Origin: Liolophura sinensis
Lineage: Eukaryota > Mollusca > Polyplacophora > Chitonida > Chitonidae
Direction: 5' to 3'
Assembly: GCF_032854445.1 (NCBI RefSeq)
Contig: NC_088301.1
Span: 35,945,187 to 36,009,186 of the forward strand
DNA length: 64,000 nucleotides
A program made the translations under genes and the position numbers. Shown here piece after piece: positions 4,561-36,073 of the stretch. How positions within the stretch are numbered: position 1 is the stretch's first letter; every line of letters starts with the position of its first letter. The notes below the pieces were generated by a model. That model did no database searches, was not told the origin of the DNA, and was given only the letters and a program-made list of their open reading frames with translations.

Positions 4561-4589
4561 TAGTTATGAACAAAATTAAACAAAAGCCG

Positions 4590-5700: not shown

Positions 5701-6518
5701 TTAGTTCATGTTCATATATGATAACTCCAGCAAACAGGAAGCTTTATAGGGGTTACCTCACCTTTAATGCACACACTGTATTGGCGAATGTGTTGACTTA
5801 AACTTTGCAAAATGCAGTGCAATAACATCGCTTTTTAAATCCTCAGTCAACTCAGAAACCATGTTTTTATCTTCTGGAATACGAACTCAACTAATGCAAG
5901 CAATTCGTGTCTAACATGATGGAATAATAAGTGTTATTATAATTGTTGATGGAGCTAGGGGGACATTCAATGCCTTTCTTGATTTGAACGACAGATGGCG
6001 AGAGGACATTTTCCTTTGCAATCCATTTTTATTTTATCAAGTCACACACTTCGCATGTAGCTGACAATTAGGAATTACCGATAGCCAATGAACATTTATA
6101 AGTATAAAAGTATCCAATAAAACAGTTTCCTTGATGATGGAGAAAGACAAATTGTGAAAATACTTCTTGGAGCATAGGATCGCCTCCACAAACGATTTAT
6201 TTAAGTGCTATTACTGCTTGCCTTATATATTTAATTGACGCATCTGATATTTTTAATTGAGTAAATGATTTTCCAATCGAACGAGTAAATATCTGACTAA
6301 ATGATGATGGTCAGTTCAATTCCAAAAGAAGACTTTCGCGTGTCCGTCGAATCAGGTGGGAAAACGAAGTGACATATAATCGTAGCGAGGCATATAGGCA
6401 GTGTCTGGCTTGATTTAATGAGGATATTGCTACCATGCAAAACACGAAAAAATATACGCCAAATATATGTCAATTTTTCTGGAAATTAAGATCGTTCTGT
6501 TTTTTTTTTTTTTTTTTG

Positions 6519-6684
6519 TTTTGGTTTTCACGCTCACACCTGAAAATAAAATTAAAGTGTCACACCAGGTATATTCCTCTACGTATATATGTTTTGTTTT
6601 GTTTGTTTTGTTTTGGTTTTTCACGCTCACACCTGAAAATAAAATTAAAGTGTCACACCAGGTATATTCCTCTACGTATATATG
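6519..6684. repeat. 93-bp tandem duplication (two copies)
   Basis: A unit running from a TTTTGGTTTT run through CACGCTCACACCTGAAAATA to TCCTCTACGTATATATG occurs twice. The CACGCTC words lie at 6529 and 6622, a period of 93. The copies are nearly identical, apart from the length of the T/G-rich leader, so the duplication is recent. It creates spurious repeated open frames on both strands. Confidence 0.93.
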
Positions 6685-8912
6685 CTCTCGTCTGCGCGTG
6701 TAGCCATATTTCATTGTGATGGGACAGATGTTTTGGGACATATCAGGCAATGTTTTGGGTGGAAGGTTCGCCAACTGTACCTTTGGAAAGAGACAAGTTT
6801 TCACACGAAGGAAATGTATTTTTGTTATTTTGTTATTTATTCATCTAATAATCTGTTGGCTACATCTGGAAGTGGGATGTACGTTATCTGATGATCACTA
6901 CTGTTATAGGGCGTTCGACATACACCTCTCATCGACCCAAGGAGTCAGAATATCACTGGAGTTTACATAAAGGTCAAGAGAACACAAAAAGGATATATTT
7001 GCCAGATGAAGCAGAGCATGGGATACAAATTTTTTTTTTTTTTGTTACATTTGTCCCCAACCAGTAAAATGCTGTTGGGCCCAATTTGTATCAGTGACGC
7101 CACATCTATAAGTGTTTAAAGTAGCAAAAACACGGTGTGACATCACTTAATTCAATATATATATATGGTCAAAACGGCCACCACGGCCATGGCAGAATGC
7201 AGTATTTCACATGCATTTTACTAGGGTTCACTACTCAGGGACATTCTTTAATGGTCTTTCATATACTTGTTTTGTTTGTCTTTGAATTCAAAGGAGTCAC
7301 CTATACCCTTTGTGAAAACCTTAGTCTTGGTGGTTGGCAGTTCTTATAATAAATATTTGTTAAAAGATAAAATATATCATCAGTTAATAGCAATGACAAT
7401 GTAATATATGAATAACATGTAAGACTATAACGTGAATATAACTATACTTGAGTTAATTCACGTTATCTAAACCTAAATAATGACAGTTGTAAAAGAAAAG
7501 GCTACATAGCTGTGGCTATCAGGCCAACTGAAAAGGTCGCAGATTTTACATGCGAAGGTACCGGTCAGAGGAATATTTTGCTAATAGCTCATATTAACAC
7601 ATTGTTTATGCAAAAAAGTTGATTGTTAAATTTGCATAAACATAAACAATACAAACCAGGTTTTTTTTAGCATGCCTTTACTTTTTTGTTGACTGAGAAT
7701 GTGAGACATATGGCGTTTCTCTTGCTTTCGTCATTTACACAACACGGAAAATGATCATTTTTCACTTTCTCAAAATATGTGATAAAGCACATAAAGCATT
7801 GTCGAAAGGCTATCGTATCTTAATTTACTTATACTGAGCCTGTAAACATGTTAGTACCATTTATTTTGGCCTCAGGTGGTACCAATATAAGGTCTGGCCC
7901 ATGGACTACCAGGGAGGGCTCTTCAATGCGTTATCCAATATAACTTATATATTGATATATTATTGAAAATCACATGGTTTACATAAAAAAGTATCCTTTT
8001 TAAAAGTTTTGGGGAACATGTATGACTAATACTTATGTTAATGAAAAGTAAAAAAAAACCTCTGTATATGTCTAAATAAAGCAGCCTCAAAATGAATTAA
8101 GGCTGATCCCCAATAAACTAGGCCATGGACACCAAAATAAAGCTGATTCTTCATAATGCCTATGCCGTGTATATAACTTCGGTAAACATTAAGGGATAGA
8201 TTTAACAAAATAATGGATCCAGACACAGACCCAATGACCTTGAAAAAATAAGCTAAGGTTTACACTGATAAACAGAAGGGTTTTTTTCTGCATGACTATA
8301 GCTGGACATGTGGTGAAAGTTGAATGCAGCGCTATATATATGACAACGGCCAATTTTGATTGTGTGAAAGAAAGAAACGGAATCATGCAACGGTGTAAAT
8401 GCCCACATGTCAGCTGCAACACGTCTCATCAACAGTTCAACTGCATGGATTGAGAATTAAAAGCGATGAATTTAATAGACTCAGACATTTTGTGCGCTTG
8501 GACAAGAAAGTGATAAAACGTAAAACGTACGCGTTTAAACGCCAAGCTGTTGTATGATAGACATGCATGTAGGCTTATATAAGCACTCCGTGTTTGTGAT
8601 TTAAGCGCAAAAATGCATGCATGTAAAAATCCAGGCCGAGAGAGCATGTGCGCCTTGTTTTAGGTTGGAGAAAAAAATACGAAAACTGTATGCTCAAACA
8701 ACGGATTAGTGCTCTCGCGCTGAGGACAAAACCATTCACAAAAAATACCATGGCCAAACAATAATGCGCTTGAGAATATAGTGATTCGTATATATTCATG
8801 CAAGCCGCCAGAAATTAACTACCCGGAACGAAGTTGACAAACACTGTATTGATATATTGATATACTGAGATGTCAGATTTTGCAGTCCATATACGTTAAA
8901 AAGAGTGGACAC

Positions 8913-8913
<1 letters not shown>

Positions 8914-8990
<77 letters not shown>
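8914..8990. repeat. (AT)n microsatellite
   Basis: About 77 bp of uninterrupted alternating TA dinucleotide. It is self-complementary, so it could extrude a cruciform, and its length may be misassembled. Confidence 0.97.
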
Positions 8991-8993
<3 letters not shown>

Positions 8994-10384
8994 TGGAATT
9001 AGGTCAAACTTCGATCATCAAGCTGAACCAGTCAACAAGCTAGAATAGAACAATATAATAATGTGCATGAGGCATGCAGTGGTATGGCTCAAGCAGATCA
9101 TACGTAATTATAAGGAAATGAGAAAAAAATAAATAAAAATAAAAACATGTCCAAACAATCTGAATATGCAAGAAAGGTAAAATTATATGGTGCGTATATT
9201 CACCCATACCATGCATCAAGTTAAGGCCTATATAGGCCTATAGTTCAAATTAAGTATATACAAAAGTGGACAACTACCAAATTTCCATCAAGAAAGTGAA
9301 ATAAACGTTTACTTGTAGACCTACAAGTTGATTGGTTTTGCCAAATATATATAGAACTGATTTACACGGGATCCACACATTCAAGTTGCAGTCAGCACTC
9401 TTGCATGCGTGACGACTTGAAACTGATGCATAGTTATAATAATTCACACATGGACTACGTAATCCTTTTAGCATGATAATATATTTTCCTGGTAGACATG
9501 TATGCGTAAATAGATAAACTAATATAAAGGGGGAAAATGTAAACACTATTGGCTACATGCACGAACAAAAGTTGTGTGTTATTTCTACGTGTATAATACT
9601 TTGTGGAACAAAATGTACAATTGTTTAAACTTGTGTATAGAAGGCTTGCTTGCGCGTTTTTTCGTTACACATACCGCGTTATACGTTGTCTTATATACAT
9701 TTTAACGCTACAATGTGTATAATTGACATTTTACTTCGTATATAAAGGCCTATACATTTTAATGCTACAATGTACATATAATTTAAATTTTGGATAATTG
9801 TCCAAGTCTGTCGATCTGCAGTCTTATTACAGCATTCTGTGACTTTACCTGCGGAGGTATACATATAATAATCATGTCAGTTTGCGATACTACCAATATT
9901 AGCAATTTTTTACATTTATTTGAATGGTATATTTATGTGTAGGAATGTAGCGTATACATGTCTGCTTTATACAATTCATGCATATGTGACAATCAAACAA
10001 TCTTGTGTAAGATATTGTATTCCAGATGTGACCAAGACAAAAGAAAGTTCCAAATTAACAATCATAGTTGAAAGCCTTCCCAATTCAGTGCTGCACAATT
10101 CTCGTTTTCTTTTTTAGCGGAGTGCATGACATGACTGACCATGCAGTGAAGTGCATATAAAAAGCCTTCATACGAGTTATGTCCCCCTTTTTGTTACTCC
10201 CAGTATTTATTTTCTGTGCAAATGCGATACTGCATGGATAAGTTCATTCAAACACAATTTTCGTGTTAACTTGCGGGGTTTTAGTGTAAGCAAAGTTCGC
10301 GGAATCTTCTTGCACAGAAAAAGTCCAGCAGCATACAGAGCCGGTTCAATCATGAGAGGCCTAAGCTTGTGGTCGAACTTCTTG

Positions 10385-10392
10385 TGACGTCA
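10385..10392 (+). promoter_or_regulatory. CRE palindrome in putative promoter of the upstream EFCAB14 cassette
   Basis: A perfect TGACGTCA, the full CREB/ATF site, lies 78 bp upstream of the ATG at 10470. The surrounding 10380-10460 segment is less A+T-rich than its flanks. Full CREs are typical of proximal promoters, so this supports a real transcription start just upstream of the cassette. The role is inferred from position and motif only. Confidence 0.5.
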
Positions 10393-10469
10393 TACAGAAC
10401 TTATTCGCGGAAGTTTGTAAACTAGGCTGACGACTTCCACGTTGTTAAGAAGAGTTTGCTTCCTTAATT

Positions 10470-10597
10470 ATGAGTTTTGATTTCAACTCTGGAACTAAAG
10501 ACCTGATGAAGCTGATAGATTCTGTTAGTGACAGCGACACTGTGGAGTTGCTAACCCTCCCGCCCCCGAAGAAATCAAGCAGCAAACCGTCGAAAAG
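10470..10597 (+). CDS. EFCAB14: EFCAB14-like alternative first coding exon (cassette A, cytosolic tail)
   Basis: The ATG has A at -3 and an in-frame TAA upstream at 10446-10448, so the start is well defined. The 42 whole codons give a tail that is acidic and then rich in lysine, serine and proline, with DSVSDSDTVELL and PPPKKSSSKPSK. The exon ends in phase 2 at AG|GTGAGA. Tail exon B (13323-13543) likewise ends in phase 2 and has an acidic serine stretch followed by basic residues, so the two look like diverged duplicates. With exons 11541-11704 and 17680 onward it would give a protein of about 480 residues. The alternative is that it begins a separate, decayed tandem gene. No transcript evidence is available here. 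Confidence 0.66.
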
Positions 10598-11540
10598 GTG
10601 AGATCTCAAAGCATGTGATCTTACAGTTTCAGCATAATAGAACTTGTAAGTTGGGATGCTTCATCCGAAGTCATATAACACGACCTATGACATGGTTTAT
10701 TATCAGTGAGAGCGTTGGGGTAGGACCATGGGAAGTGGGTGAAAGCATGGTATATTCAGTGTATTTTGTATAACTTTTTTTGCAGGGCAATGTGCAATGA
10801 TATACAAATAAATCAATATGATATCAATAGGCTTATTAGGTATCACCACTTCAAAAAAGAAATGATGATTTTAATTTATAATAAATTTTATAATCCTCTT
10901 AGATTATAGTAGATGATATGTACATAGGCCTATATAGGGATATATGTGATATCTTAGTGAATATCGTTTACAAATTAAATTGTCAAACTAAAACACTCAG
11001 AACAATCTTCTCATTCTAGTTATAAAAAGTAGGGCCTAAGGGATATGGACAAGATTTCCTGCACTCTGAGCGGAAACAACTGTTCCTTGTATTGAGTGGG
11101 CAAAGGAGTCCATCGTATAAGAATAGGTTAAGAAAGGAAGTAGAACACAAGTTTGGAAACAACAGAAAATAAGTTTTGTAACATATAAATGTATGCATAT
11201 TGTGGACTCCATTATCAACACGTTTGAGTAAAGCTTGATTTTGTGGGCCAGTGACCAATGCCATCTTCTCTTTCGAAAATTGGATTACACTTTTAAACTG
11301 CTGGTCAGAGTAGTACAGTAATATTAATTACACCTAACCTATATCAAAGACTCCACATAATAACATTAAGAATTTTTGAAAACTTAGATTGCATTAGATT
11401 GTATCTGAAAAAGTGTTCAAAAGATTTAAAATCTGATTGTCGTGCTGATCACTTGCACTAGGTAATAGCGAATATTTTTCCCTGGCAGTGACAATGTAAC
11501 ATACATGTATATTGTATTCTTTACTTTCATGCACAAATAG

Positions 11541-11704
11541 GCGAAAGAGCCATTCATATGGCCAAAATATGTGTTCCATCTGGGTGCTCCTTAAGATGAT
11601 ACTGGCTCTGGTTCTTATTGGTGCCATGTCCTTCTTTGGGGTGACCACTTTTCAACTGACTAAACGGGTTGAAGATCTACAGGCTCAGGTGAAGAAAATT
11701 CAAG
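11541..11704 (+). CDS. EFCAB14: EFCAB14-like alternative membrane-anchor exon (cassette A)
   Basis: The acceptor ...CAAATAG precedes the exon and the donor is CAAG|GTGAGC. Entry phase 2 fits the exon ending at 10597. Exit phase 1 fits the acceptor of the common exon at 17680, giving the junction codon G|CT. The product has basic residues (RRKSHSYGQ), one hydrophobic segment (MILALVLIGAMSFFGVTTF, about residues 62-80 of the isoform) and then a coiled-coil start (TKRVEDLQAQVKKIQ). Exon B at 16450-16598 has the same layout: RR, hydrophobic segment, charged helix, IQ at the end. No coding continuation follows before 13.3 kb, so splicing to 17680 is the likeliest fate. Confidence 0.66.
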
Positions 11705-13140
11705 GTGAGCTTTTTGATGAGACCAGTCATAATATAACGTTCTTTGAACATAGCCCACCTGTGGGAAAAACACTTCTCCTCACCAAGCTATCAAGTTTTC
11801 ATGATTTCACATGCTTTAAGGTTAGTTTTGTCAGCCAATCGTAATAGCCCTTTTCATGCATTCAGATTTTGCCCATGCAGTTCCTCCCAAACGACGATGC
11901 TGACTTTTATGATAGTTGCCAGTACATCTTACCTGTCACCTGAACTTGTGCATGCTTAACTTTAATTACAATTGAGTAATTATTGTCATAATTACCTTGA
12001 CTTAGGACTTTGCGAAATACTAGTAGTAATTTTCCAGGTATTCAGACTTTGTCCCTGAAACTCTTTTTGAAGTACTGAACATATTGCCATGAAAGATGGT
12101 ATCATCTAAACTGATGCAGGATTATGCTTAAGCACAATGAGTTAATTATGTTCATAGTTACTCCTGTCCAGGTACTTCTGATTGCTATGTTTCTCTGTTC
12201 AAACTGGATGTAGTGTAATCCATGAACACTGCAAATGGTCTATGGAAGAATCTACATAAAGCCAAACTTGTCATATGAATTCCTGTCATTTCTTTTAACG
12301 TTTTGTTTCTTTTATTTTTGAAAATGTTGATGGATGGAAGGGGGTATTTCGAACTTCTGGATTCTAGTTTTGTGTATGTGTTACAGTTTCTAGCTTATTA
12401 AATATGTCATGAATTATTTACACAAAGAGTTGGAAGACTTCCACAATTTTATATTTTATTGAAAGTGATGCAGATCACCTGTGACTGCATTTTAATAGAT
12501 TCTGTGACAAGTTATTATCTCAACCTTCTTTATTTATTTGATAAGTGTTTTGCGCCATATCTCAACAATGTAGATTGCTGTATAGATGCAGTGTACAAAT
12601 ACTTATATATGTATTGGGTGGATTGTGTTCATATATTTTCATGTTTAATTGTGTAAAAACTCGAAGATAAACCCAAACTGCCTGTATCTTTTTTTAAGTG
12701 ATATTTCTTAGTAAACCATCAGGAGCATATTGAGAGTTTTTGAAATTTATATTATATATGGACCTGAAAATGATTTTTCTGGATTTTTTAGCTGTCATTG
12801 GACATGATTTAATCTGTTTTGATTATGTATTTCATATGATGTTGCAATGAGAAAGATTAAATATTTCGTTTGGTTCAGATTAGATTGATTCTCTCCTTTA
12901 CATTCTTTTTAATTTTTTGTCTGTTGTTTTAGTTCAGGATATTGCTATAAATAATGTTTTCTGCTTTTTACAAAAATTTTGTCAATGTACAGTATTCTAC
13001 TTGTCAAGTCCTAATGTATGTTGTAATTTTATGGGTAAGTTTGCTGTTCATCAATATTTTTAGTTGTTTGGTTTGAAAAAGCTGGAAAAAATTATCTAAA
13101 GAAGGGAGTGAACTGTGTACATTTTCAGACAAAATTATTT
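11705..13140. other. Intronic/intergenic stretch between the two EFCAB14 first-exon cassettes
   Basis: Frames here run straight on from the donor at 11705 or are short. I see no exon with a convincing acceptor-donor pair and no known repeat. The sequence becomes strongly A+T-rich from about 12.3 to 13.1 kb. Confidence 0.45.
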
Positions 13141-13322
13141 CCCTTGATTGTATGACGATTTTTAACCAATCGTGTTAGCTGCTCTCGTTTTCATCCGTTA
13201 ATTGCATGCGTAGTCGTCCAACATTTCCGGGGTTAAGTTGATGCTGTGAAGCCCAAAAACTAGCAATATCACGATAAATTTGTTATGTCTGAATGCGTTC
13301 TGTACACTGAACGACACACCTT
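13141..13322 (+). promoter_or_regulatory. Putative promoter and 5' leader of the main EFCAB14 transcript
   Basis: Just upstream of the conserved first exon lies a less A+T-rich stretch with a CCAAT word at 13166-13170 and an ETS-like TTCCGG near 13225. No TATA box is evident at a suitable distance. The leader also carries a short upstream open frame at 13285-13329, listed separately. The start of transcription cannot be fixed from sequence. Confidence 0.42.
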
Positions 13323-13329
13323 ATGGTGA
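13285..13329 (+). CDS. Upstream ORF (14 codons) overlapping the first EFCAB14 ATG
   Basis: This ATG (G at -3) opens a 14-codon frame ending at TGA 13327-13329, out of frame with and overlapping the ATG at 13323. Ribosomes translating it would bypass 13323 and could restart at the in-frame ATG 13395, which has A at -3 and matches the vertebrate start. It matters only if the transcript begins upstream of 13285, which is unknown. Confidence 0.4.
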   Translation: MSECVLYTERHTLW

Positions 13330-13543
13330 GAAAGCACGACAAGCTGGATTCCGGCGGGAGACTAATCAATGTGGAGTTCAAACACGGCAAAAAGATGAAA
13401 AAGCGTCGTGAACTGGACGCGCTTGTCAGCAATGGAAAGGCCCGGCGAAAAACCAGAAGCGGTCACGAACTTCTGCGAAATGAATCGGATTCTTCTGAAA
13501 TCGAGGAGTTTAGCTCACCAGACACGAAAATCAGTGTTAGAAA
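13323..13543 (+). CDS. EFCAB14: EFCAB14 exon 1 (cassette B, cytosolic tail)
   Basis: The first in-frame ATG after a TGA at 13308-13310 is at 13323, in a weak context (C at -3). The ATG at 13395, codon 25, has A at -3 and begins the part that aligns with vertebrate EFCAB14 (MKKRRELDALV). A basic run (KARRKTRS) and an acidic serine run (NESDSSEIEEF) follow, as in vertebrates. The exon ends in phase 2 at AGAAA|GTGAGA. Confidence 0.9.
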
Positions 13544-16500
13544 GTGAGACAGTATTTTTTCTTATTCAGTGGATACATAATATAATATTAGTTCAGTTAA
13601 ATTAAACGTTGAGTTATATTTCCAACAATTTCAGCTATTTACCGGCCTCAAAGTTTAATCATTGAATTCAGAAACGTTGTAGGTCTATTCTGCAAGGCAG
13701 TTTGCGAAATGAAGTGGGTCCGTAAATCCACTGTAAAACAGCACCATACTCCAATTTCTGTTGAGGATTGAAGGGAAAATGATGTCTTCAATCAAGCATA
13801 CAAGTTTAAATCCATTTCAAATTAGTTATATAGAGAAAATCTGATGAAGTGTTGACTTTCCTCTTCAAAATCGTGGTGTGCACAGGGGACGCATCAGGTG
13901 CATCCAAAATTAGGAATGTATCTGAGGGCATCAACGGAAAACATGGATAATGAAGCAGATGCGCATTTGATAGCCGCAAGACTTGATTGGAACCTGTAGA
14001 ATATAATTTTTCTCATTTAACTGACCGAGTAACATGTTCTTTCTATTTTACATCCATGATGACTGATGAAATCATTGCTGGATGTCATAATACCTAAGAC
14101 TAGTTTCGTGGTCTTGTTCGATTGATTTCTGTATCTTTTTGTGCAGTTCCGAGATTTTAGTACACCCAATTCACTATGACAGCACAAAGTTATTTTGACA
14201 AGCGAGAAGAAAATATATCTGTGGATTTCAACAACATTTCATCTCGGGAATGGATTTCCACTTGCAGGAGTGGTAATAAAGGTACTATTCTCTTTAATGC
14301 ACACTAGAATTCAGCACGTCTCCGTTTTGGAGTGGATTCATCGGCCAACTTCGTTCCGCAAAGTGCCTTGCGGGATGGACCGCATTTTTAAATCCAACGA
14401 TTTAACCTTGAGGCAGGTAAAGATCAGAAATTGTTGAAAATAGACATCATTTAATTTAATTTTAACTAAATACTGTATCAGTTTCACACAGGCCCCTTTA
14501 GCCATAGTTATCAGTACTTGGAGTTAAACACCATTTTGGCATAATGCCCCAGGAGTCTCTCACCAGTGCGGTCCCTGTGAGTTCAAGTCCAGCTCATGCT
14601 GGCTTCCTCTCCGGCCGTAAGTGGGAAGGTCTGTCAGCAACCTGCGGATGGTCCTGGGTTTCTTCCGGGCTCTGCCCGGTTTCCTCCCACCATAATGCTG
14701 GCCGAGGTCATATAAGTGAACTATTCTTGAGTACGGCGTAAAACACCAATCAAATAAAATAAATAATAAATCAACACCATTTTGAAGCTCAAGCTGGAAT
14801 TTAAGCAAATCATTATTTATCAGTCGGAGTCATGACAGGACTTTAATAAATGGTGGGGGGTGGAGAGTTTTGGGTCTTTACTCTTAGGTCTGCGAAATTT
14901 ATTCAATTCCCCAAAATGCCTATACCTAACCTGTGTTTTGATGAATAAGCCCAATCGATGTTTCGGGGGTCTAGTGAGTTCACACAGATATCAGCATGGA
15001 AGCTCTCGCAAACTAATGTAGATAAAAGACGTTATTTAACAGTGGTTGCTAGATTAAATACACGTATCTGTTGACTTGATGGCACCGTTGGCACCTGACG
15101 TATGATCACGTCTTTTAGCTGTGTTAGTTTGCAAGAGCTTCCACCTGTCTCACCCACATCTGCATGAACTAGCAAGACACCTGCAATGCCGATTTGAAGA
15201 CAGGAAAGTTGGTGCTATTACTCTAACTTACTAATCTAATTTATTTTATTTCATTGATGTAATCTATATAAAATCAATCAAGAGTTAGGAAATTGTGATA
15301 TCATTTCACGCCAATAGTTCACCATGTCAAATGCTCCACGGCTATTCATTAACTGGGGGCGGATGGTATAACGTTTACCTCACAACCCCTGTGGTACTAA
15401 CGATGACAGTTTCAAAGTAAGATGAAAATGAACAGGCCAAGGTTGGTATCCACCCTTCACCAAAAAGAACATGGCCAGATTTCAGTTTGAAATGTATTAT
15501 ATTTAGTTATTTTATAATTCAAATCATTTGATCCCATCGCCTGTTTCTGATCTGTTTAAAACTGAAACCATCTAAAGACCATAACTCAAACCGAACAGGC
15601 CTGCACTTTAAGAAACTGTAAGTGAAATGACTCACAACCCTTAACATGTGTTTTAATGTTGTAGGGAAACAAAAACAGTCACACAGAGATATACTGGTAT
15701 AGAAAACATAGCATATTAATTTGCATGTGAAGCATTCAGCAGCATCATCTGTATTTGAAATAATGAATGCTGTGCATATTTTGATAATCTTAGTGTCAAG
15801 TCTGCTGTGTCTATTCATAAAAGTTAGAGAAATGACTAAACACAGTGTTTTGGCAATTCTTTCACGGTGGGTGGTGTCTTTATAGGCTATCATATTTATA
15901 GCAGAACAAATGGTAAACCACGTACATTCCATTTTGTAATATCATGCCAGCCCCAAATTTTCTACGCAACACAGTGCTTCACAACAAATGGGCGATAGAG
16001 TATTTCTTTTCAGGTTTAACACATGCACTGTCCAGATACAAGACCCCTTTCCAGACCCATAACTGTGGTTAAGGCAAAATTGCTTGGGCTTCAACAATAT
16101 GTATGCCATGAGCTTTGGGATGGTGTCATTATTGAGTCATATAAACAGTATGTGTATGAAGTGAGTATTGTGAAAGGTGAAAGCCACAGTTCACACATGT
16201 TTGATGGAAGACATCGTTTATAAAGGACTTATCAGACTCTGTGTTAAGTGGTGTATGGTTTACCATTTGCTTCTGCCTTGGCTATGATACTCGGTAAGCC
16301 CATTATAAAAATTGAAGTCAAATAGCCACCTGGGGTGTAGAAGGAAGAAAAACCACTGTTGATGCAATATTATGATAAGCCTTTATATGCAGAGTTACAA
16401 GTTTTGTGTGAGTTTTTCTGTCACAAAAGAATGTTTTGGCTTATTTCAGTCGACGTGGTGGTTCTTTGTGTGGCACATGCCTGACTGTCTTGGCCTTCCT

Positions 16501-19500
16501 ACTGCTTCTGGCATGTGTTGTGGCCTGTGCAGGCCTGATGTGGGTGCATCTGGAGCTAAAGACAGAGATAGATACATTGAGGGGCAGAATTCAATCAGGT
16601 ACACAGGGTTTGGTGAAAGAATTGTGATATTTTAACAATGTTCATTTTTCTTTCAGGCCATTTAATTATACTTATGAAAACTACTACTGTGTTTTAGCCT
16701 TATTACTGGTGGCTATTAGTTGAAATAACAAAGCTTATTTGTTTTTTTGTGAATCAGTAGCAGGTGTACAAGGGATAGATTGTCTGTACGCTGTTATGAT
16801 CAACTAACATCAAACATGTCCATGCACTTGTCTGAATTTACTGCTTAGTTTTAAATTTTCATACATTTATTTGATTTCCTGGTTGGAAGTTGAGAGATGT
16901 GCATTATATATACATCTGAATATATCATTGATGTTGGCAGAAAAAAAAGAAAGTGAATTTTATTATTCTTGTGCTAAACCCATTTGTAAACGCATAATTT
17001 GATGGTAATAATTTCATGGTAATGGATTGTAATTGTTCATTTGAGTGTCAGTCTGAAGACATACACTTCCTGTATGATATGTAGAAAACACAACATTTTG
17101 TCATAAAGTATATCCTCATTTGACACTCCAACTGTTTTTTGTTTGTTTTTTTTTAATGATGCGGTTAAAATATCATTGTGTAACCTGATGATAGTATAAA
17201 TTATATATTATTTATAAATAAGTTTTGTAATTATGTGTACATTTTATTTGCTTACTTTTTGGGGGTTATATGTTATCCTCTTCTGTAACATTTGTGTTTC
17301 TATTATTGCAACAGATGTAGGTGATTTTTAAGACAGCTATTACACCTTTGTTATATTTGGTATTAGTTAACATTTTTGACACATCTATGATACATATGTA
17401 TACTTCTGTGATTTTGCTCTAACAGGAGCCTTCTTTTTATATTTGCGTTGACTCAGTAGGTTATAATAATTCATGTTAAAGTGCTACATGTACAATTGTT
17501 GTCTGATGTTTTTATGCAACAAACAAAGCACATGTATTTTCTGTTATCCTTATTAGGCATTTTTGAAATTGTTATTGTTGAAATGTCGAAGGAGATTTCA
17601 GGTTTCATAACATCTGACTTCCCAGTGGTGGTCTCACATTCATGTTCTGTCTTCAACATATTTTTTCTTTTAATTCCAGCTGAAAACAGTAATCAAGGTG
17701 TACCTGCAGAATTGGAGAGTATCAAATCTCAATTACAGGACTGGAATAAAACTCTGTTGGGTTATCGCAGTGGGAAACAAGGCCTGGAAGAGGTGATCAA
17801 AAATCTTACCACTGTTAGTCAACAGGTGAGTTTCTTTGAATCTGTGTGAGTGGAATATACATAGACATTGCTTGTCAATGTAATGCCAGATTTTCAGAAG
17901 CAGAACTAGTTTGTGGGTAATAATATGTTTAAATCAAAGGGAAGTCTTTAAATCAATCTTGACATGTATAAAATACCACATATGTAGATTTGTTTCGCTT
18001 TGATATAGGAGATGAAAATGGGTAGCAGTATCATGGCCATATAAGTGACACCCTTGTTCAAGCTTCTAATGAAATGAAATGGGACACTGGATTGGATTAG
18101 GCCCTTAAAAAACTTTTTTGTTGGCCCGAGTAAAATAACATATTATCTTCATTTCATTCATTAAAACATGATTACCACAGTTGAGAGCTTTGATCTACGC
18201 TGAAAGAGGAGAGGATTGATGTCTCCTTGTATTTAAGCTGTCATTACCTGAGAGTCCACTGAGGTAATGGAATATAAAGGATTGGACATAACACTTTTTT
18301 TGAATTCTGCTATCCCATCTAAACTGGGAAATTGTGGAATCAAGGAAGTAGGTGAGAAAGTACATGCGCAGCATAAATTAAAGGGACATTCATGTATGAA
18401 TTGATATAGATGTGTTTAGGTCAAACGGTGGCATTGTCTTTGTTTGATGGGGTTCTTTTTTTCATCTTTAAAGGTAAAATTACTACAGACGTTGCTGACA
18501 GAAATCAAGAAGAAGATGGGTCAACACCCTGACGAATCTAGCATGGATGGCCAAAATCTTGCTAAAGTGAGTTCATTATGCATTGTCAGGTATAGCTGTA
18601 CTACCTTCATTGTTGGTAGTTCATCTTGAAAAAAATTTGGTAAGATAATATGTCCTGTATGTGACAAGGGAGGTCCAGAAACTTACTGGTCTATACTAGC
18701 AAGAACTGTTTATATATGGTATTCATTGCTCGTTTTACAAATCTGCTTTTGACCTCCATGTACAGAAAGTTACTTCCGAAGGCATCAAGGTAATTTGATT
18801 GATTAAAATGTTCATGGCGTTGGCGATTCTTTTGTCCGATTGATAGAGCATGGCAGATATTGGCAGTGACTTGGAGACTGTTAAGAAACAACATGCACAG
18901 CTTGAGGACAAAACAAAGAAAAATATTCAGAAGTTGGAGGATAGAGTTGCGCAGCTTGAGGTAAGTTAGCAGAATTACCATAGACGGTGAAACTGGCTTT
19001 AGGGTGGTAAGGGGGTGGGGTATGTTTCCCTCCCCCCCCCCCCCACTCCCCTCACTATCCAAATTAATATATATATAATGTTCTGCCGCTCCTGTTACTT
19101 AGCATTGCCTTGTATCAGATCTCAAGGCAATAGCCAGCTGCTGGGCTTACATTATAAGCATGCAGATACATCATGAAGAATAGTTAAACATGCTTCTGTT
19201 TGTTTAAACTGTACCTACATTTAAGAGAACAGGTTTATTTTCATATATACATCCATGCACTTTATAATGGCAAAGCGTGTGTCTCACCTTTTAATGGTTC
19301 TGACTATTTGCAACACTTTAATGCACCAAGTATACTTCAAGTTCACAGCAAGATCAGAGACTATGTTAAAGTTTTAATAACATGCTTGGTTTATCTAATT
19401 ATGTCTATCACTTTGTATCAAAATTCCATGCACAACTTTTTCAGAATCAGCTGAAAATGATGGTTATGCCTTCACTCCCTCCTACTCCAGCTGTAGCTTC

Positions 19501-22500
19501 TATGAATAAGGAGCAGACTACTGAACTGACACTTGTAAGTATCTGTCTATTGGATTTCCATATTTTCATTTGGTTAGTCGATGGACATAGACAAAAACTT
19601 ACACGCTCAGAAAATTGCATTTAGTCTTGAGAGGTGAAATTCATTTTACTGAGTGATGATAAAAGACAAATATAAATATTGAATGTATAACGGACTGTTG
19701 TGTATATTTTTAGTCCTTTAGTTTTTTGCACCAGACACACATGGATAATAAATTCTCTACACGGAAAATGCTGCCTCTTTATGTGAAGTTAACATATAGC
19801 CCTTGATCATTTGGCTTTTCCAGATACATTTTATGTTTGCTACGCGTTCAATTGTCTGATTAGAGTGACTTATATATGTTCTATGTTTTTTTTTTTTTCG
19901 TTTATAGCAGCTTGAGCAGATGCAGAAGGAATTACAGACAACCAATGCATCTTTGTATGGGGAGATCAATGTTATAAGACAGGAGCTCTCTAATCATGAG
20001 GTTTGTTTTTTGATATATAGTTTGGATACTTCGGATACTTAAATCTCCAGAGCTGTAGGTGTAAGAAATGGTATGTTTGTTAATGGCTAAAGATTCTGTA
20101 GAGCCTAGAATAGAAGCCACAGTTCTTTCAGGTCACAGGTTAATTTTGGTGTTATTGATAAATTTGGATGTATTGAAAAGGCTCAGTGAAAGCATCTCTA
20201 ATACCATATCTAATTTTTTATTTCTAATTTTTAGAGGTACAAGGAGATAATGTGCATCCATCAGTCTGTTACAGAAAACCCTGATTTGATTTATGTGCTG
20301 GACTTAAAAATTCGACCTCATCGTCATATGACTGAAAAATTGTAAAGTACATCGTTAAAACCCAAGTATCCACCCATCCTATAAAACTCGAACTTGTTTA
20401 TATCACATTGAATTCTAAACTTTGACAAAATATTCCTTTTGATTGTGCCAATATCAGTGAAATATTGTATCTGGATTCAATTTTATCGGGTCAGTGGATC
20501 ATTTTATAAACTTGATTTGACTGTGGGACCTGTCAAATGCCTGGCAGCAGCTTCTTAACATCATTTTAGTCAAAGGTTCTTTTCCTACATGTAGCTCTTC
20601 ATGATGGTGTCACATTAGGCACAGTATGACAGTACAGAACAGAGTGATACATTGTAATATTGTAAACGTTGGGCTACAATCAATTTTTGATGTAACAATG
20701 GCTTGAGGTCCTGTTTTGCACTAGTGCTACCTCACAGGATTAAAAAATATGCCGGCCCTCTATTGACGTTAAATTAAAGCTCAAATTATGTTATGAAGCT
20801 CTAAACTTACATCAGTAAAACCATTGGTGTGACCATTCTCTCCCCATATTCAGACAAGGTAGTTTGCTGACTTTTTTTTTTCTTGTTTGTTTTTTTTTTT
20901 TTTTTCTCATGGAAGACCATGTACCAGTTGACGGAAGGTATGAACTACTTTTGTTTTCCTTCTTCTGGTATAATTGTTGCCCTTTCTGTAATTTGTTCTT
21001 TATGGATATTATCATTTGTTGCAGAGTCAATTTGAAGCCCTAGAAAGTCAATCTTCCAAGAAACCTGTTTCCATCAACACAACAGCTATTATGGTCAATT
21101 TGAGAAGTGAGCTAACTACTTACATACAGTCCATGGTAAGTGCTGAAGGGGGTTCCTGAGTTTCATATCTGATGTTCTTTTGGGTTTGATGGTAACCTGC
21201 AGAGTTATGCCCCTTGATGATATTTATCTGGGGCATAGCAGAGGTTTTCTTTTTAAACAAAGAGCCATGAATAAATGCAGATTGGCAAAAAATTCAAAGA
21301 TGTTTAATGTAGCAGAACTGTAAGACCTGAAATTCAGCCTACAGGTAGAAAAGGGGGACAAAATGTTCATGTCCAGTCACAATTATTACAAAAAATCTTG
21401 ATCTTTTTCTCCAGCTTTCTAATTCTAGCAAGTCTGCTGCTCCAGTGGTCCCAGACTCTGTCCTGGATACGATCAAAGATGAAGTTAAGAATATTTCTGT
21501 GGCAGTAGGCAGTCTGGAACAGCAGGTAATAGGAGAAATCAGTTACCAAACAGAACTTTTTAGAAATCCATAATGTACATCAGACCTGGCATGAGATTTT
21601 CCAACATGCAAGATATTCAAGACAGATTTTTGTCAGACTTTTTGTGGAATTACTTTCATTTTCCCTTGTTATAGAGGTATGGCGTTTTATGTTATAGAGA
21701 TTTCATCCGTCTGTCTGTGTTCTTGTCCAGGCTGTAACTCTAACAGTTTTCAGCATAGAGTTTTCATTTTTGGTGGATACATACACCGATGACGATGGCG
21801 CGACTCACATTTGTCCAGTTCCGTGGTTGTCATGGTTACCAGGTTGCCATTTCCCTTTCTATATCATAGATGTGATTTCATGTCCGAGATAAAGATAGAT
21901 ACATGTGATGATGTGTCGTGACTTGCATTTGACCATTTTCACGGTTGTCATGGTAACCGCTTAACTGTTTTCCCTATAGATAATATATAAATAGGAATGA
22001 TTTCATGTCCGGGCTATAACTTGAACTGTGTTCCGCATAAAGTTTTCATTTGTGGTGGACACATTTGTCCACTAGTGCAGTTGTCAAGGTAACCACATAC
22101 CTACCATTAACACCCATGAAGATTCCCCTCGGGTTATAATCACGACAATGCTGTATTCTTTTATACATTTCAAACAAATGCATTTGTTGGGGGTGTATGT
22201 TGTTTTTCACCTGAACTCTTGTTTCATCTTTTGTAAGTATTGATTCTTGATAATTTGGATTTTCATGCTCATTCATTTGATTCCACTCCCTATCCCCAAC
22301 ACACTCGCCTACCCAAAATGTACATCTGTAAGCCCTTAGTGAGGAAAATACTTTTGGTGTTTCAGATTAATACAGAAGGAAGCTCGGCAGACTCTGTTAA
22401 TATGGCTAAAACACTTGCAGTACTGCATGGTCATATTAACTCTACAGACAACAATGTACAAGTAAGACAGCCTTTGTGTTGATTTAGAATTGCACTGATT

Positions 22501-25217
22501 TGTGCATTGGATTTCTAATGCTTTTTTATGTATTTGTTTATTTATTTGATTTGCGTTTTAAGTCATACTCAAGAATATATCACTTATATGACAGGGGTCA
22601 GTGTTACGATTACGAGGAAACCGAGCAGTGCCTAATGTTTCTAATTAATGCAACTAATTAAAGAAAATTACAAGGAGGGAGGACATGGCTCAGTGATAAA
22701 AGTGCAGATCTCTTACACATTAGGCACTGGAGGTGCGGGGTCACTTCAGCCTTGGAAATAAAAGGGAATTTATACCTGAAGCAGTTGATGTTTGTCAATT
22801 GATTGGAATAATTTTATGTGTATTGAAGACGACTTGTCTTCTACTTACATGATGAATAAGTGAACATCACATAGTGCTAAATTTCCTCCATAACTGGCCT
22901 AAGGTTATTGGTTTATCACAGGCAGTACAGTTTCCTCCATCCATAGGCATAAAACTGATCATTGAAAATTATGAATCCAGCATGTAATTGTTCACAAAGT
23001 GCAAATATTCAGAAGAAGAAAACTACCCAAATTCAACTTTTTGGCATGTGAAAGGATGCAATTTGTGCAACTTTTTGATTTTGGAGACAAATCTACATTG
23101 GTTGAGTTGGCCACTTTCTGATTATCACTAGAAGTAATGTGATTACCAGTTTAGGCAAAGTAATGCTTTCAGAATATAAATGAATAAACATCTTGCTAAC
23201 ATACTTAAAGTTTAAAGAACTACAGTATGCACGCTTTAGAAGGCTACCCATCAAGCATCATGACTTGGAACCTTAGGTCGTGTGATTGTATTCGGTTGAA
23301 ATTACCTCCCCTTAATGTGTTTCTTCAATTTTAGAACTTGAACAATTCTGTTGGCAAGCTGGAGACTACAGTGGAGAAACTGATGCATCTATATGTTGAA
23401 GAGAAGAATGTGATAATGAATTTGACCCATAATGTTCATGGAATTCTCAGATATGTTGACCGACTTTCAGGTCCTCAAAGTGAGTAAATTCTCAATGTAT
23501 AAACCTGTATGTCCAATCATCCAAGTCAATCTTGGGGTACATTTTTATTCTAGAGTTTTTGTAGTAATAGAATTACTGTATTTTACCCAAAGTGAAACTT
23601 TTTGCAGTCTGCACATTCTGCTTGATTCTCATTGAGCAATTTAAGATTTTGCTGTGAAATTTGATTAATCGTTTTGGAATGGTTATCAAAAATATCATTT
23701 TCAGGCCTTTATGTGCTTCTGAACGTAAATTTTTGCAGGCAACTCAGATTTAAACATGAGATTTTACACTCGAGTCAGCAGTTACCGCACTGCAATCATA
23801 AAGAGGGCATATCCTGTTTTGAGTCTTATCCCACATGTCATGATATGAACAGGACAAGAATCTTTTCCCTTTGTTAGAATATTAAGGTGTCATGTCAAAG
23901 GCATGAGCTAATGACTTCAATTTTGTGTCATTACATATTTACATATGTATTCATTCAAGTAGTAAAATCTGAATAAAGAGCAATCTTGACTTTTGTCATT
24001 ATTTGATGTTTGTATCTTTTTTTTTTTTTTTTGAGTGTGTAATTTTGTGTTTTATTTGCTTCAGATACTCTGAATAGTGATACCACAGAATCCAATACCA
24101 CACCTGCACCTCAGCTGGATACCCAGAGTAAGTAAGAAAACCATCACAAATCCTTCACATTTAAACAGTATAGCCAGTCATATGTCCCAGTGACATCACT
24201 CTTTGGTATGAAATGGTGATGTTCTTAGGCGCCAGCTGCACACGGGGAAGTAAATGTGGAGCTGTGTGTATCTGTAGGTATGGTTTTACTTAAATTATAC
24301 AGCAAGATTTTGGGAAAGCTAAAACAGTGCATGGGGGCCTCCGTGGCTCAGTCGGTTAGCGCGCTAGCGCAGCGTAGTGACCCAGAAGCCTCTCACCAAT
24401 GCGGTCGCTGTGAGTTCAAGACCAGCTCATGCTGGCTTCCTCTCCGGGCGTACGTGGGAAGGTCTGTCAGCAACCTGCGGATGGTCGTGGGTTTCCGCCA
24501 GGCTCTGCCCGGTTTCCACCCACCATAATGCTGGCCGCCGTCGTATAAGTGAAATATTCTTGAGTACGGCGTAAAACACCAATCAAAAAAAAAAAAAAAA
24601 AAAAAAAAAAACAGTGCATGAAAAGAAGAAAATCATACACTGTCTATGTTTCTTGTAATAAGTATTATTGATTGTACTGAATTAAGAGCTTAGTTTTCAT
24701 GTGACAACTTGAAACAGTTAACCTTTAACCAGGTTCAAACTTTGTAACCACTCTTGATCATGTATGCCTTTAACTCTTTAAGTACATATAAAAGAGTATG
24801 TTGTGGCTGAGTGATTTAGAACCTTGTCTTTCGATACTTGTCTTTTTTATATACTTCAATTGGATGGCCATTTGGATTGTGTTACATCCAAATACGTATG
24901 TTTGTTAGAGAAAATTTACCTTCGACCAGTATGACAGAGATCTGAACAACTGGCAAAGATTATTAGGCATTCATGATGGCCTGATGACTTCTATTTCCTC
25001 AGCCAGGAAACTGTATACTGTTGTATTAGTGAAAAATTTTTAGTATGCCATTAAAATCCAATCAAATAAACAAAAACTTTCAAATATAAAGTTATCAATC
25101 ACCTGATGTGTTAATTTTACATTTACAGCAACTGAAGGCATTTCTGAAACCACCAGGACCGAAAACCGCCGAGATACATCGAACTTAAAAGAAGAATTAC
25201 ATGAAATTTTTGAATAA
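13323..25217 (+). CDS. EFCAB14: EFCAB14 (KIAA0494) orthologue, type II membrane coiled-coil protein lacking the EF-hand tail
   Basis: Thirteen coding exons join in frame: 13323-13543, 16450-16598, 17680-17825, 18474-18566, 18847-18960, 19445-19534, 19908-20000, 21025-21135, 21415-21525, 22366-22461, 23335-23479, 24065-24127 and 25129-25217 (1521 nt, 506 residues plus stop; human about 495). Diagnostic matches to EFCAB14 recalled from memory are MKKRRELDAL (human MKKRKELNAL), LLACVVACAGLMWVHLELK (human ILAACVVACVGLVWMQVALK) and SGKQGLEEV (human SGEMGLNKV). The layout is a basic then acidic cytosolic tail (1-74), one membrane segment (about 82-106) and a long heptad-like ectodomain with ten N-X-S/T sequons. 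The family role is poorly known. Vertebrate members end in EF-hands; this model stops at NLKEELHEIFE, aligned with the first residues of that region. The ATG at 13395 is a likely alternative or main start. Confidence 0.9.
13588..14469. mobile_element. Foldback/MITE-like element with long inverted arms, in EFCAB14 intron 1
   Basis: The left end (from about 13588, GTTCAGTTAAATTAAAC) and the reverse complement of the right end (to about 14469) are clearly related over 130-250 bp. Both arms share CAACAATTTC, TTTACC(G/T)GCCTCAA and a GGCANTTTGCGNAANGAAGT word. No transposase is encoded between them. The element starts about 45 bp after EFCAB14 exon 1. A partial, inverted copy lies at 61040-61625. 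The arms have diverged, so the insertion is not recent, and the exact ends and target duplication are unclear. Confidence 0.75.
14527..14784 (+). mobile_element. 5'-truncated tRNA-derived SINE with 12-bp target-site duplication
   Basis: The SINE body at 14539-14772 matches the fuller copy at 24334-24607 from the CAGGAGTCTCTCACCA region to the tail (GTACGGCGTAAAACACCAAT followed by an AATAAA-rich end), but lacks the A box. It is flanked by AACACCATTTTG at 14527-14538 and 14773-14784, a perfect 12-bp duplication. That marks it as a retrotransposed copy that was 5'-truncated on insertion. Confidence 0.9.
14785..16449. other. Rest of EFCAB14 intron 1
   Basis: No exon is recognised. The 137-codon minus-strand frame at 15519-15932 is the longest chance frame here and has no domain or flanking splice sites. 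A short near-inverted pair lies around 14996-15015 and 15127-15145 (GGAAGCTCTCGCAAACTA and TAGTTTGCAAGAGCTTCC), which may mark the ends of a small, otherwise unrecognised palindromic insert. Confidence 0.45.
16450..16598 (+). CDS. EFCAB14: EFCAB14 exon 2 (cassette B, membrane segment)
   Basis: It is entered in phase 2 after TTATTTCAG and left in phase 1 at TCAG|GTACAC. It encodes RRGGSLCGTC, then a hydrophobic segment ending ACVVACAGLMW that is nearly the same as the vertebrate one, and then a charged helix (LELKTEIDTLRGRIQS). The basic residues on the N side and the glycosylation sites on the C side imply a signal-anchor with the C-terminus in the lumen or outside. Confidence 0.93.
16599..17679. 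other. EFCAB14 intron 2
   Basis: A+T-rich intron with no exon, repeat or structured motif that I recognise. It ends in the pyrimidine tract before the acceptor at 17679. Confidence 0.5.
17680..17825 (+). CDS. EFCAB14: EFCAB14 exon 3, first common ectodomain exon
   Basis: It starts in phase 1, so either cassette A (ending 11704) or cassette B (ending 16598) can join it. It ends in phase 0 at CAACAG|GTGAGT. It contains the conserved block YRSGKQGLEEVIKNLTTVSQ, comparable to vertebrate ESGEMGLNKVWINITEM, and two sequons (NKT, NLT). Confidence 0.92.
18474..18566 (+). CDS. EFCAB14: EFCAB14 exon 4, coiled coil
   Basis: A 93-nt exon, phase 0 at both ends, with acceptor TTTAAAG and donor AAA|GTGAGT. 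It encodes VKLLQTLLTEIKKKMG and then a short polar stretch. Confidence 0.85.
18847..18960 (+). CDS. EFCAB14: EFCAB14 exon 5, coiled coil
   Basis: A 114-nt phase-0 exon between GATAG and GAG|GTAAGT. It encodes a strongly heptad-like helix (DLETVKKQHAQLEDKTKK, then IQKLEDRVAQLE). Confidence 0.87.
19445..19534 (+). CDS. EFCAB14: EFCAB14 exon 6, linker
   Basis: A 90-nt phase-0 exon between TTTTTCAG and CTT|GTAAGT. It encodes a proline-containing break (MPSLPPTPAVAS) in the coiled coil, followed by a polar stretch (KEQTTELTL). Confidence 0.82.
19908..20000 (+). CDS. EFCAB14: EFCAB14 exon 7, coiled coil
   Basis: A 93-nt phase-0 exon between TTTATAG and GAG|GTTTGT, a weaker donor. It encodes QLEQMQKELQTTNASLYGE and then INVIRQELSNHE, with one sequon (NAS). 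Confidence 0.85.
20001..21024. other. EFCAB14 intron 7
   Basis: No exon or known repeat seen. Two T-runs lie at 20872-20904. The sequence at 20740-20790 resembles neighbouring intron sequence. Confidence 0.45.
21025..21135 (+). CDS. EFCAB14: EFCAB14 exon 8
   Basis: A 111-nt phase-0 exon between TTGCAG and ATG|GTAAGT. It encodes SQFEALESQSSKKPVS, a sequon (NTT) and a helix (MVNLRSELTTYIQSM). Confidence 0.86.
21415..21525 (+). CDS. EFCAB14: EFCAB14 exon 9, coiled coil
   Basis: A 111-nt phase-0 exon, the same length as exon 8, between CTCCAG and CAG|GTAATA. It encodes two sequons (NSS, NIS) and the helix DSVLDTIKDEVKN then VAVGSLEQQ. Confidence 0.88.
21702..22108. repeat. About three diverged tandem copies of a 115-170-bp unit in EFCAB14 intron 9
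   Basis: Shared words recur in order at about 21702-21869, 21870-21994 and 21995-22108: TTTCAT..., TGTCC(A/G)GGCT(G/A)TAAC, AGTTTTCATTT(T/G)TGGTGGA and GGTTGTCATGGTNACC. The middle copy lacks part of the unit. It reads like a diverged minisatellite or the tail of a repeat expanded in place. Confidence 0.72.
22366..22461 (+). CDS. EFCAB14: EFCAB14 exon 10
   Basis: A 96-nt phase-0 exon between GTTTCAG and CAA|GTAAGA. It encodes SADSVNMAKTLAVLHGHI, one sequon (NST) and a polar end. Confidence 0.87.
22530..22760. mobile_element. SINE fragments (minus-strand tail, then a tRNA-like head)
   Basis: 22530-22630 matches the reverse complement of the SINE tail (TTTGATTTGCGTTTTAAGTC, then ACTCAAGAATAT). 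22685-22745 has a tRNA-like head on the + strand (ATGGCTCAGTGATAAAAGTGC, then GGGGTCACTTC). The words AGTGCCTAATG and CATTAGGCACT form an 11-bp inverted pair linking the two parts. Both are old and incomplete. Confidence 0.6.
23050..23225 (+). repeat. Unclassified dispersed repeat, copy 1
   Basis: It shares GATGCAATTTGTGCAACTTT, TGATTTTGGAGACAA, CTACATTGGTTGAGTTGG and GAATAAACATCTTGC with copies at 38150-38320 and 49190-49385, and its 3' part with 45555-45615. All copies run in the same orientation. I see no coding potential, box A/B or inverted ends. Confidence 0.7.
23335..23479 (+). CDS. EFCAB14: EFCAB14 exon 11, coiled coil
   Basis: The exon enters in phase 0 after ATTTTAG and leaves in phase 1 at CTCAAA|GTGAGT. 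It encodes NLNNSVGKLETTVEKLMHLY and then EEKNVIMNLTHNVHGILRYV, with two sequons (NNS, NLT). Confidence 0.9.
24065..24127 (+). CDS. EFCAB14: EFCAB14 exon 12, Thr/Asn-rich linker
   Basis: A 63-nt phase-1 to phase-1 exon between GCTTCAG and CCAGA|GTAAGT. It encodes a disordered-looking linker (TLNSDTTESNTTPAPQLDTQ) with a sequon. Because it is symmetrical it could be skipped without a frameshift. Confidence 0.82.
24321..24620 (+). mobile_element. Full-length tRNA-derived SINE with 13-bp target-site duplication, EFCAB14 intron 12
   Basis: The SINE at 24334-24607 begins GGGGCCTCCGTGGCTCAG. It has an RNA polymerase III A box (TGGCTCAGTCGG, 24344-24355) and a B-box-like GTTCAAGACC near 24413-24422. 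A conserved central region (GCTGGCTTCCTCTCCGG, then GGTCTGTCAGCAACCTGCGG) and the common tail (GTACGGCGTAAAACACCAAT) follow, ending in a poly(A) run. AAAACAGTGCATG flanks it at 24321-24333 and 24608-24620. Intact boxes and a perfect duplication mark a recent insertion. It resembles molluscan SINEs of the V superfamily; the family name is unconfirmed. Confidence 0.95.
25005..25078 (+). mobile_element. Diverged SINE tail
   Basis: ACTGTTGTATTAGTGAAAAA, then TTTTAGTATGCC, then CCAATCAAATAAAC resembles the common tail (TCGTATAAGTGAAATATTCTTG, TACGGCGTAAA, CCAATCAAATAAA). It is old and lacks the head. Confidence 0.5.
25129..25217 (+). CDS. EFCAB14: EFCAB14 exon 13, terminal coding exon without EF-hands
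   Basis: It enters in phase 1 after TTTACAG and reads TTEGISETTRTENRRDTS, then NLKEELHEIFE and TAA (25215-25217). The NLKEELHEIFE stretch lines up with vertebrate STEDLQDLFRK, which leads straight into the first EF-hand, but here translation stops. I found no EF-hand loop (DxDxDG) in any frame between here and 27.5 kb. Confidence 0.85.
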
Positions 25218-35560: not shown

Positions 35561-36073
35561 GAATAGTCAATCCGATTTGTAGTTTTAATTGGTGCGTCTG
35601 TGTGTAAATGCAAAGGAAATGTGTTGATAATCCGATAGCCCAAATAACACTATTCGAGAAGTGCCAGCACTGGGCCCTGACGAGGGGGATTGTAAAATGG
35701 TGTGCGCAGGCATTATACCAGACAGTTCCCAGGCGGACAGCTCACTGGCTGTGTAGGACTAGAGCAAGCGGACAGTGTACTACGCAGACACCTGATCAAC
35801 TTCTATAAAACTTATCGCTTCTTTGTTCTTCGTGATTCTTTAAGAAAAAAGGACGGGGCATGCACGGACATCAAAAATGGGTCCATACATATTGAGAATT
35901 GGAACTGATTAATTTAAATGAAACGGTGTTTACAAAAATTTTAGCTTTTTTTTTAAAAGCTGTCATTGCCTCAAGACTTATCACAAATGAGTAACAGTTT
36001 TGATTTAATGATGTTTAGGTTTAATTTGTGGGCCAAGCCGTTTTTCCCACCACCCCAGTCTGTGGGTCCAGGG

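Follow-up and report, generated by a model that had tools for sequence, protein, structure and literature searches.

Two candidate N-termini with different tails and membrane anchors in an EFCAB14-like gene of the chiton Liolophura sinensis

Here we describe an EFCAB14-like gene of the chiton Liolophura sinensis that has, most likely, an alternative N-terminus in addition to the one that resembles the vertebrate protein. The gene lies in a 64,000-nucleotide stretch of contig NC_088301.1 (NCBI RefSeq assembly GCF_032854445.1, positions 35,945,187 to 36,009,186 of the forward strand), referred to hereafter as the window; positions are counted from its first letter. The assembly was first published as Liolophura japonica (PMC11068029) and was later reassigned by its authors (PMC12441733). 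Each of the two starts is made of a tail exon and a membrane exon. Cassette A consists of exons A1 (10470-10597) and A2 (11541-11704) and cassette B of exons B1 (13323-13543) and B2 (16450-16598), all on the + strand, and both can be joined to E3 (17680-17825, + strand), the first common exon, where the shared ectodomain begins. The initial annotation had proposed that two such starts can feed one ectodomain, and this agrees with the CpG footprint, with an ectodomain present in one copy, with the uniqueness of exon A2 and with the reading frame logic. As judged from the sequence, A1-A2-E3 is probably a real mRNA of this gene, and placement of the two forms in different compartments is offered as a hypothesis.

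Results

Exon borders and reading frame logic

Both cassettes were found open where they had been placed, with the first exon ending in phase 2 and the second in phase 1, a GT after A1, A2, B1 and B2 and an AG before A2 and B2. Exon A1 (128 bases) encodes the ATG and a 42-amino acid tail, ends in phase 2 and carries a donor (AAG/GTGAGA) at the 99.8th percentile of the 4123 GTs in the window. The in-frame stop at 10446, 24 bases upstream of the ATG, fits a first exon. Exon A2 (164 bases; phase 2 in, phase 1 out) encodes a basic juxtamembrane stretch, a membrane helix and a two-heptad stalk, and its donor stands at the 100th percentile of the same GTs. A1 and A2 each have a single match in the genome.

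Joining to 17680 is in frame from either cassette, as had been claimed, and yields a protein of 480 amino acids from A1-A2 and of 506 amino acids from B1-B2; the junction between 11704 and 17680 is probably used. Three combinations, A1-A2-E3, A1-B2-E3 and B1-B2-E3, have open frames; A1-A2-B2, A1-E3 and B1-E3 run into stops. A2 and B2 are both 2 mod 3 in length, and a productive transcript therefore carries exactly one anchor exon. The description of the cassettes as interchangeable holds in that each joins 17680 in frame, but it is too narrow: A1 also joins B2 in frame, so the two exons of a cassette may be used apart.

The shared ectodomain is single-copy, all 12 genome matches at E up to 1 falling at the EFCAB14-like locus, and cassette A therefore has one obvious partner. 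No ectodomain retrocopy that might reveal splicing was present among these matches. Between A2 and E3, 11 acceptors reach the 97th percentile, counting that of E3 itself (100th percentile), and two of them, 17680 and 17557, allow in-frame entry into the ectodomain. Use of the second good acceptor at 17557 would lengthen E3 in frame by 41 amino acids (17557-17679), partly hydrophobic, and this extension is open behind A2 and B2 alike.

Cassette A is unlikely to be a chance occurrence

Both strands of the window were scanned for open exons of phase 2 to 1, 90-300 bases long, with donor and hydropathy scores at least equal to those of A2, and A2 itself was the sole return. In 7.68 Mb of simulated third-order Markov noncoding DNA, no exon was found at A2's own thresholds, which overstate its rarity because they were taken from A2 itself and which required only AG of the acceptor. 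Three looser settings gave 17, 50 and 41 exons in the same simulated DNA, a rate of 0.01-0.04 in each 6 kb of a single strand. Because no simulated exon reached A2's thresholds and because A1 is followed by a CpG-depleted stretch resembling a gene body (below), a chance origin of cassette A is unlikely.

Coding potential was scored from codons, using 25 of 30 kinase loci (the other five had stops in both readings). Compared to open intergenic frames, A1 scored at the 98.8th percentile, A2 at the 91.9th and B2 at the 95.2th, with exons E3-E13 ranging from 48.1 to 99.7. The score discriminates poorly and is only suggestive for A1 and A2. In Pfam, A1-A2 matched two weak families, below cut-off. 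Relatives of A2 were sought in prokaryote and viral collections (metagenomes not searched), where 161 and 29 pattern matches, respectively, gave no confirmed relative, as is expected of an animal exon. AlphaFold2, run on the single sequence, modelled A2 as one helix (residues 4-53 of 54; predicted local distance difference test score, pLDDT, 80.1).

A CpG-depleted stretch begins near A1

Methylated CpGs decay, and the CpG landscape therefore records germline methylation. In oysters, gene bodies carry a plateau of methylation, reached by a steep rise downstream of the start site, and promoters are generally without methylation (PMC4378273). At segmentation penalties 5 and 7, the observed/expected (o/e) CpG ratio of the window was 0.29 (1-4400), 0.81 (4401-10700), 0.28 (10701-13100), 1.88 (13101-13500), 0.66 (13501-15400), 0.29 (to 24300), 1.67 (24301-24600), 0.22 (to 27600) and 0.84 (to 36500). 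Ratios of 0.13-0.56 were seen in the body of the EFCAB14-like gene and in outer parts of the window. An AATAAA at 27413 lies close to the border at 27600. Two start sites fit this landscape. One is B1, within a CpG-rich stretch (12801-15300, o/e 0.78, with the spike at 13101-13500) that we read as the B promoter region. The other is A1, followed by a depleted stretch (10598-12850, o/e about 0.3) that we read as germline-transcribed gene body. The depletion starts near A1, within about 100 bases of its donor, and extends as far as the core of the region read as the B promoter.

Over the 2.2 kb from 10598 to 12800 the ratio was 0.33. This value was never reached in two flanking CpG-rich controls (minimum 0.68 in 79 windows and 0.69 in 121 windows) or in a distant 50-kb control (minimum 0.62 in 956 windows), a single unannotated block chosen before its CpG content was seen; control windows overlap, and their counts are non-independent tests. 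A dispersed repeat occupies part of the intron after A2 (11840-12379). It is not the cause of the depletion, since the part before it (10598-11839) is equally depleted on its own (0.34, reached in 0 of 195, 0 of 279 and 0 of 1951 control windows); after the repeat (12380-12850) the ratio was 0.21. The repeat has at least 53 and at least 55 genome matches (itself included) at about 64-86% identity, with some copies close together. Strand skew was also considered as a sign of transcription and was dropped, the result being mixed.

A promoter candidate for cassette A carrying a cyclic AMP (cAMP) response element (CRE) had been named before the present test. The full CRE (TGACGTCA) is present as an exact match at 10385-10392 on the + strand, 85 bases upstream of the A1 ATG, against an expectation of about 0.003 in 300 bases; the window holds only one further copy, at 32295. 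Among the potential CREB targets listed for K562 cells is human KIAA0494 (EFCAB14), with ratios of 5.42 for CREB binding and, in the knockdown comparison, of 0.678 for expression (PMC2647550). The same source reports its full CRE motif as kept from human to mouse, the legend printing TGACGCTA (PMC2647550). The parallel between chiton and human was noticed after the fact and may be regarded as suggestive.

Weighing the alternatives

Several observations weigh against A1-A2-E3 as a real mRNA. The acceptor of A2 is weak: among 3593 AGs it stands at the 18.7th percentile when scored with a matrix trained on the gene's other 12 acceptors (B2 and E3-E13, with A2 left out), and at the 90.5th by a rough generic score, near E10 (92.3). 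B2, which form A must skip, has a usable acceptor (98.8th percentile with the matrix that it helped to train; 95.7 by the generic score). As for coding score, the +2 frame of A1 (99.9) outscores its own frame, A2 reaches only the 87.6 percentile when set against intron frames, and the real exon E10 (48.1) is no better than the read-through past A2 (48.6). The CpG evidence also has limits. The valley at 10701-13100 is not split off at the strictest segmentation penalty (10), the flanking controls were delimited after the profile had been seen and all controls are unannotated, and low CpG is common nearby (2.2-kb windows of the left 30 kb range from 0.17 to 0.60, median 0.30). Finally, the footprint is silent on strand; it marks a methylated domain, from which transcription starting at A1 follows only by inference.

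The alternative that best withstands these data is that A1 is an alternative first exon spliced directly to B2, such that the tail alone changes, the anchor is kept and A2 sees little or no use. In its favour, A1-B2-E3 has an open frame with matching phases, the acceptor of A2 is weak, and for the CpG valley a transcript starting at A1 is enough. There is also a precedent in B4GALNT2, where two first exons yield two tails (PMC9959560). Against it stand the 100th percentile donor of A2, its membrane helix in the right phase and the lack of any equal in the simulation, and we regard this arrangement as unlikely.

It is also conceivable, with still lower probability, that A1 and A2 form a separate small gene for a short single-pass membrane protein, ending either by read-through (stop near 11842) or in an exon at 12172. 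Both endings are open for a short stretch, and ATTAAA sites are present at 12397 and 12856. However, the 12172 site lies within the dispersed repeat, the CpG depletion extends beyond the 12397 site and reaches the B spike at about 13100, and read-through would waste the strong A2 donor. The read-through stretch is not coding-like, yet on this point, as noted above, E10 does no better.

It is very improbable that cassette A is an open reading frame produced by chance, or a decayed exon that has fallen out of use: the weak A2 acceptor and the dissimilarity of A2 to B2, and of both cassette A exons to the human protein, would fit this, but both frames are intact, nothing in the simulated DNA equalled A2 and the CpG depletion begins right after A1.

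Cassette B resembles the vertebrate protein

Exon B1 (13323-13543, 221 bases, ending in phase 2) encodes an ATG and a vertebrate-like tail, and exon B2 (16450-16598, 149 bases; phase 2 in, phase 1 out) a vertebrate-like membrane helix and stalk. The B2 donor (CAG/GTACAC) is rather weak, at the 94.7th percentile. B2 was modelled by AlphaFold2 from the single sequence as one helix (residues 5-48 of 49, pLDDT 88.2). All comparisons with human EFCAB14 are to be taken as leads more than as tests. Scored against the human tail and membrane segment, B1 and B2 were each matched by 0 of 2000 shuffles, while A1 and A2 showed no similarity to the human protein (340 and 542 of 2000 shuffles, respectively, reached their scores). 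This bears out the statement in the initial annotation that only cassette B is like the vertebrate segment.

B1 has a second in-frame ATG at 13395, with A at -3 where the first ATG has C, and the second matches the vertebrate start. The 24-amino acid N-terminal extension of B1 may thus be optional. Five short upstream ATGs precede B1 (13150-13322), one overlapping its start codon, compared to one in the 220 bases before A1, and form B may be under tighter translational control.

Origin of the two cassettes

The two cassettes had been attributed to an ancient two-exon duplication, and this was not upheld. A2 against B2 scores 26, a value reached by 717 of 2000 segment-preserving shuffles, and A1 against B1 is marginal (45 of 2000). 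The layout of A2 and B2 is alike, with a basic or glycine-rich juxtamembrane part, one helix and a short L-(I/V)-L-(I/V) stalk (the stalk identified by eye), but equal exon phases alone are a weak sign of duplication. Direct repeats in 10300-17830 comprised eight families of 18-30 bases, none of them long or linking the cassettes. Single-sequence helix models of A2 and B2 failed to separate the rival readings. The pair may have arisen independently or by a duplication so ancient that its traces have faded.

Cytosolic tails and sorting

The tail of form A (MSFDFNSGTKDLMKLIDSVSDSDTVELLTLPPPKKSSSKPSKRRKSHSYGQNMC) contains two sequences, DLMKLI and DTVELL, that match the acidic dileucine motif [DE]xxxL[LI]. 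When the tail was shuffled 50,000 times, two or more such motifs occurred in 0.07% of shuffles, and a separate shuffling gave one or more in 4.8%; the motif class was chosen after the tail had been read. Tail B has no acidic dileucine motif. Signals of this type are read by AP-1 (trans-Golgi network), AP-2 (plasma membrane) and AP-3 (PMC5297682). Since tail A has two motifs and tail B none, different sorting of the two forms might be expected if A1-A2-E3 is a real mRNA, although even then we put the chance somewhat below even.

Gene model and family assignment

The model of form B has 13 exons and encodes a protein of 506 amino acids with a cytosolic tail, a membrane helix and the shared ectodomain, which has coiled-coil-like stretches and ten N-x-S/T sites. 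Downstream of E3, the ectodomain exons (18474-25217, + strand) are E4 (18474-18566), E5 (18847-18960), E6 (19445-19534), E7 (19908-20000), E8 (21025-21135), E9 (21415-21525), E10 (22366-22461), E11 (23335-23479), E12 (24065-24127) and E13 (25129-25217, with the stop). Compared to human EFCAB14, the ectodomain gave a score reached by 0 of 300 shuffles, with an alignment that spans roughly the initial 230 residues of the shared part. Pfam returned 32 weak families for form B; the 25 shown were all under cut-off, mostly coiled-coil types, and included no EF-hand family. The first 172 amino acids of form B gave a single chance-level match (E 0.8) among solved structures, and Rfam and tRNA scans gave no matches.

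The protein seems to lack its namesake EF-hand domain. With calmodulin and the human C-terminus as queries, tblastn over six frames of the whole window gave nothing better than E 3.9, a small EF-hand model gave a best E of 3 over 2202 open frames of the window, and a relaxed EF-hand loop pattern matched nowhere on the + strand from 17 to 36 kb (a stricter pattern would have missed the human loops themselves). These negatives cover the 64-kb window, and an EF-hand exon may lie beyond it. Since six-frame analysis of the window revealed no EF hand, we use the name EFCAB14-like. The model ends in LKEELHEIFE followed by the stop (in 25129-25217), by eye near the position at which the human EF hand would start.

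Other features of the window

Two elements resembling short interspersed nuclear elements (SINEs), similar to each other by eye and with A-rich ends, are located at 14540-14775 and 24330-24600. The second coincides with the CpG-rich spike at 24301-24600 within the otherwise depleted gene body, as if it had been inserted recently and its CpGs had not yet decayed. A 240-amino acid open frame at 35957-36679, Pro/Ser-rich by eye, lies close to the left border of the following CpG-depleted domain and had no Pfam match at E up to 1. A 50-kb stretch (C7:35500001-35550000) is CpG-rich throughout (median o/e 0.86), in contrast to the depleted domains near the window, and the genome looks like a CpG mosaic.

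Discussion

The data are best explained by one EFCAB14-like gene with two starts. The downstream promoter would give B1-B2-E3, the conserved vertebrate-like form, and the upstream promoter would give A1-A2-E3, bypassing B1 (taken as a first exon) and skipping B2. Form A would present the same ectodomain on another cytosolic tail and another membrane helix. A transcript with no anchor exon or with both would reach a stop, such that each productive mRNA would carry exactly one anchor. The two [DE]xxxL[LI] signals of tail A would draw form A toward endosomes and lysosomes, while form B, with no dileucine signal, would keep the acidic-cluster tail of the vertebrate form. We infer three of these steps, namely the splicing of A2 to E3, the transcription of cassette A from its own promoter and the difference in sorting. 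In its fullest version the scheme is a doubtful one: promoter choice would swap the whole cytosolic and membrane part, form A, perhaps switched on by cAMP through the CRE, would go to endosomes and lysosomes and form B elsewhere in the secretory pathway, the frame would enforce one anchor, and the anchors would be independent in origin.

Alternative promoters are known to give differing N-termini to type II membrane proteins in the ASPH/junctin family. A known swap of anchor exons is that of Drosophila Dscam1 exons 17.1 and 17.2, and the chiton gene likewise has two membrane exons of the same phase. As in that kind of system, transcripts with both anchor exons (A1-A2-B2) or with neither (A1-E3, B1-E3) are unproductive. 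Unlike the Dscam1 exon 17 pair, A2 and B2 have no detectable kinship by duplication. The chiton gene further differs from Dscam1 in that the cytosolic tail swaps too and in that the alternatives are 5', apparently behind separate promoters; the chiton swap and any difference in localisation are predictions. In human B4GALNT2, two alternative first exons give two cytosolic tails and the long form gains a post-Golgi location (PMC9959560). The chiton first exons similarly join a shared exon in frame, but whereas the membrane and luminal parts of B4GALNT2 are identical between forms, in the chiton gene the anchor would change as well. With respect to vertebrate EFCAB14, cassette B and the early ectodomain are similar to the human protein and cassette A is without detectable counterpart. 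A gene in which the choice of promoter exchanges tail and anchor together, the two anchors being unrelated, would in our view be a variant of the Dscam1 and B4GALNT2 cases.

Among the EFCAB14/KIAA0494 papers listed, titles and abstract openings report no alternative anchors. They likewise report no function of the protein, the name being mostly mentioned one to three times. If form A exists, nature would have exchanged tail and anchor on a single ectodomain, which gives a ready experiment on where EFCAB14 acts. After testing on annotated genes, the CpG footprint that gene-body methylation leaves in the germline could back unannotated start sites of molluscs without RNA. If form A exists, the choice of promoter in the chiton gene would also exchange the membrane module as a whole, and the reading frame would hold each product to a single anchor.

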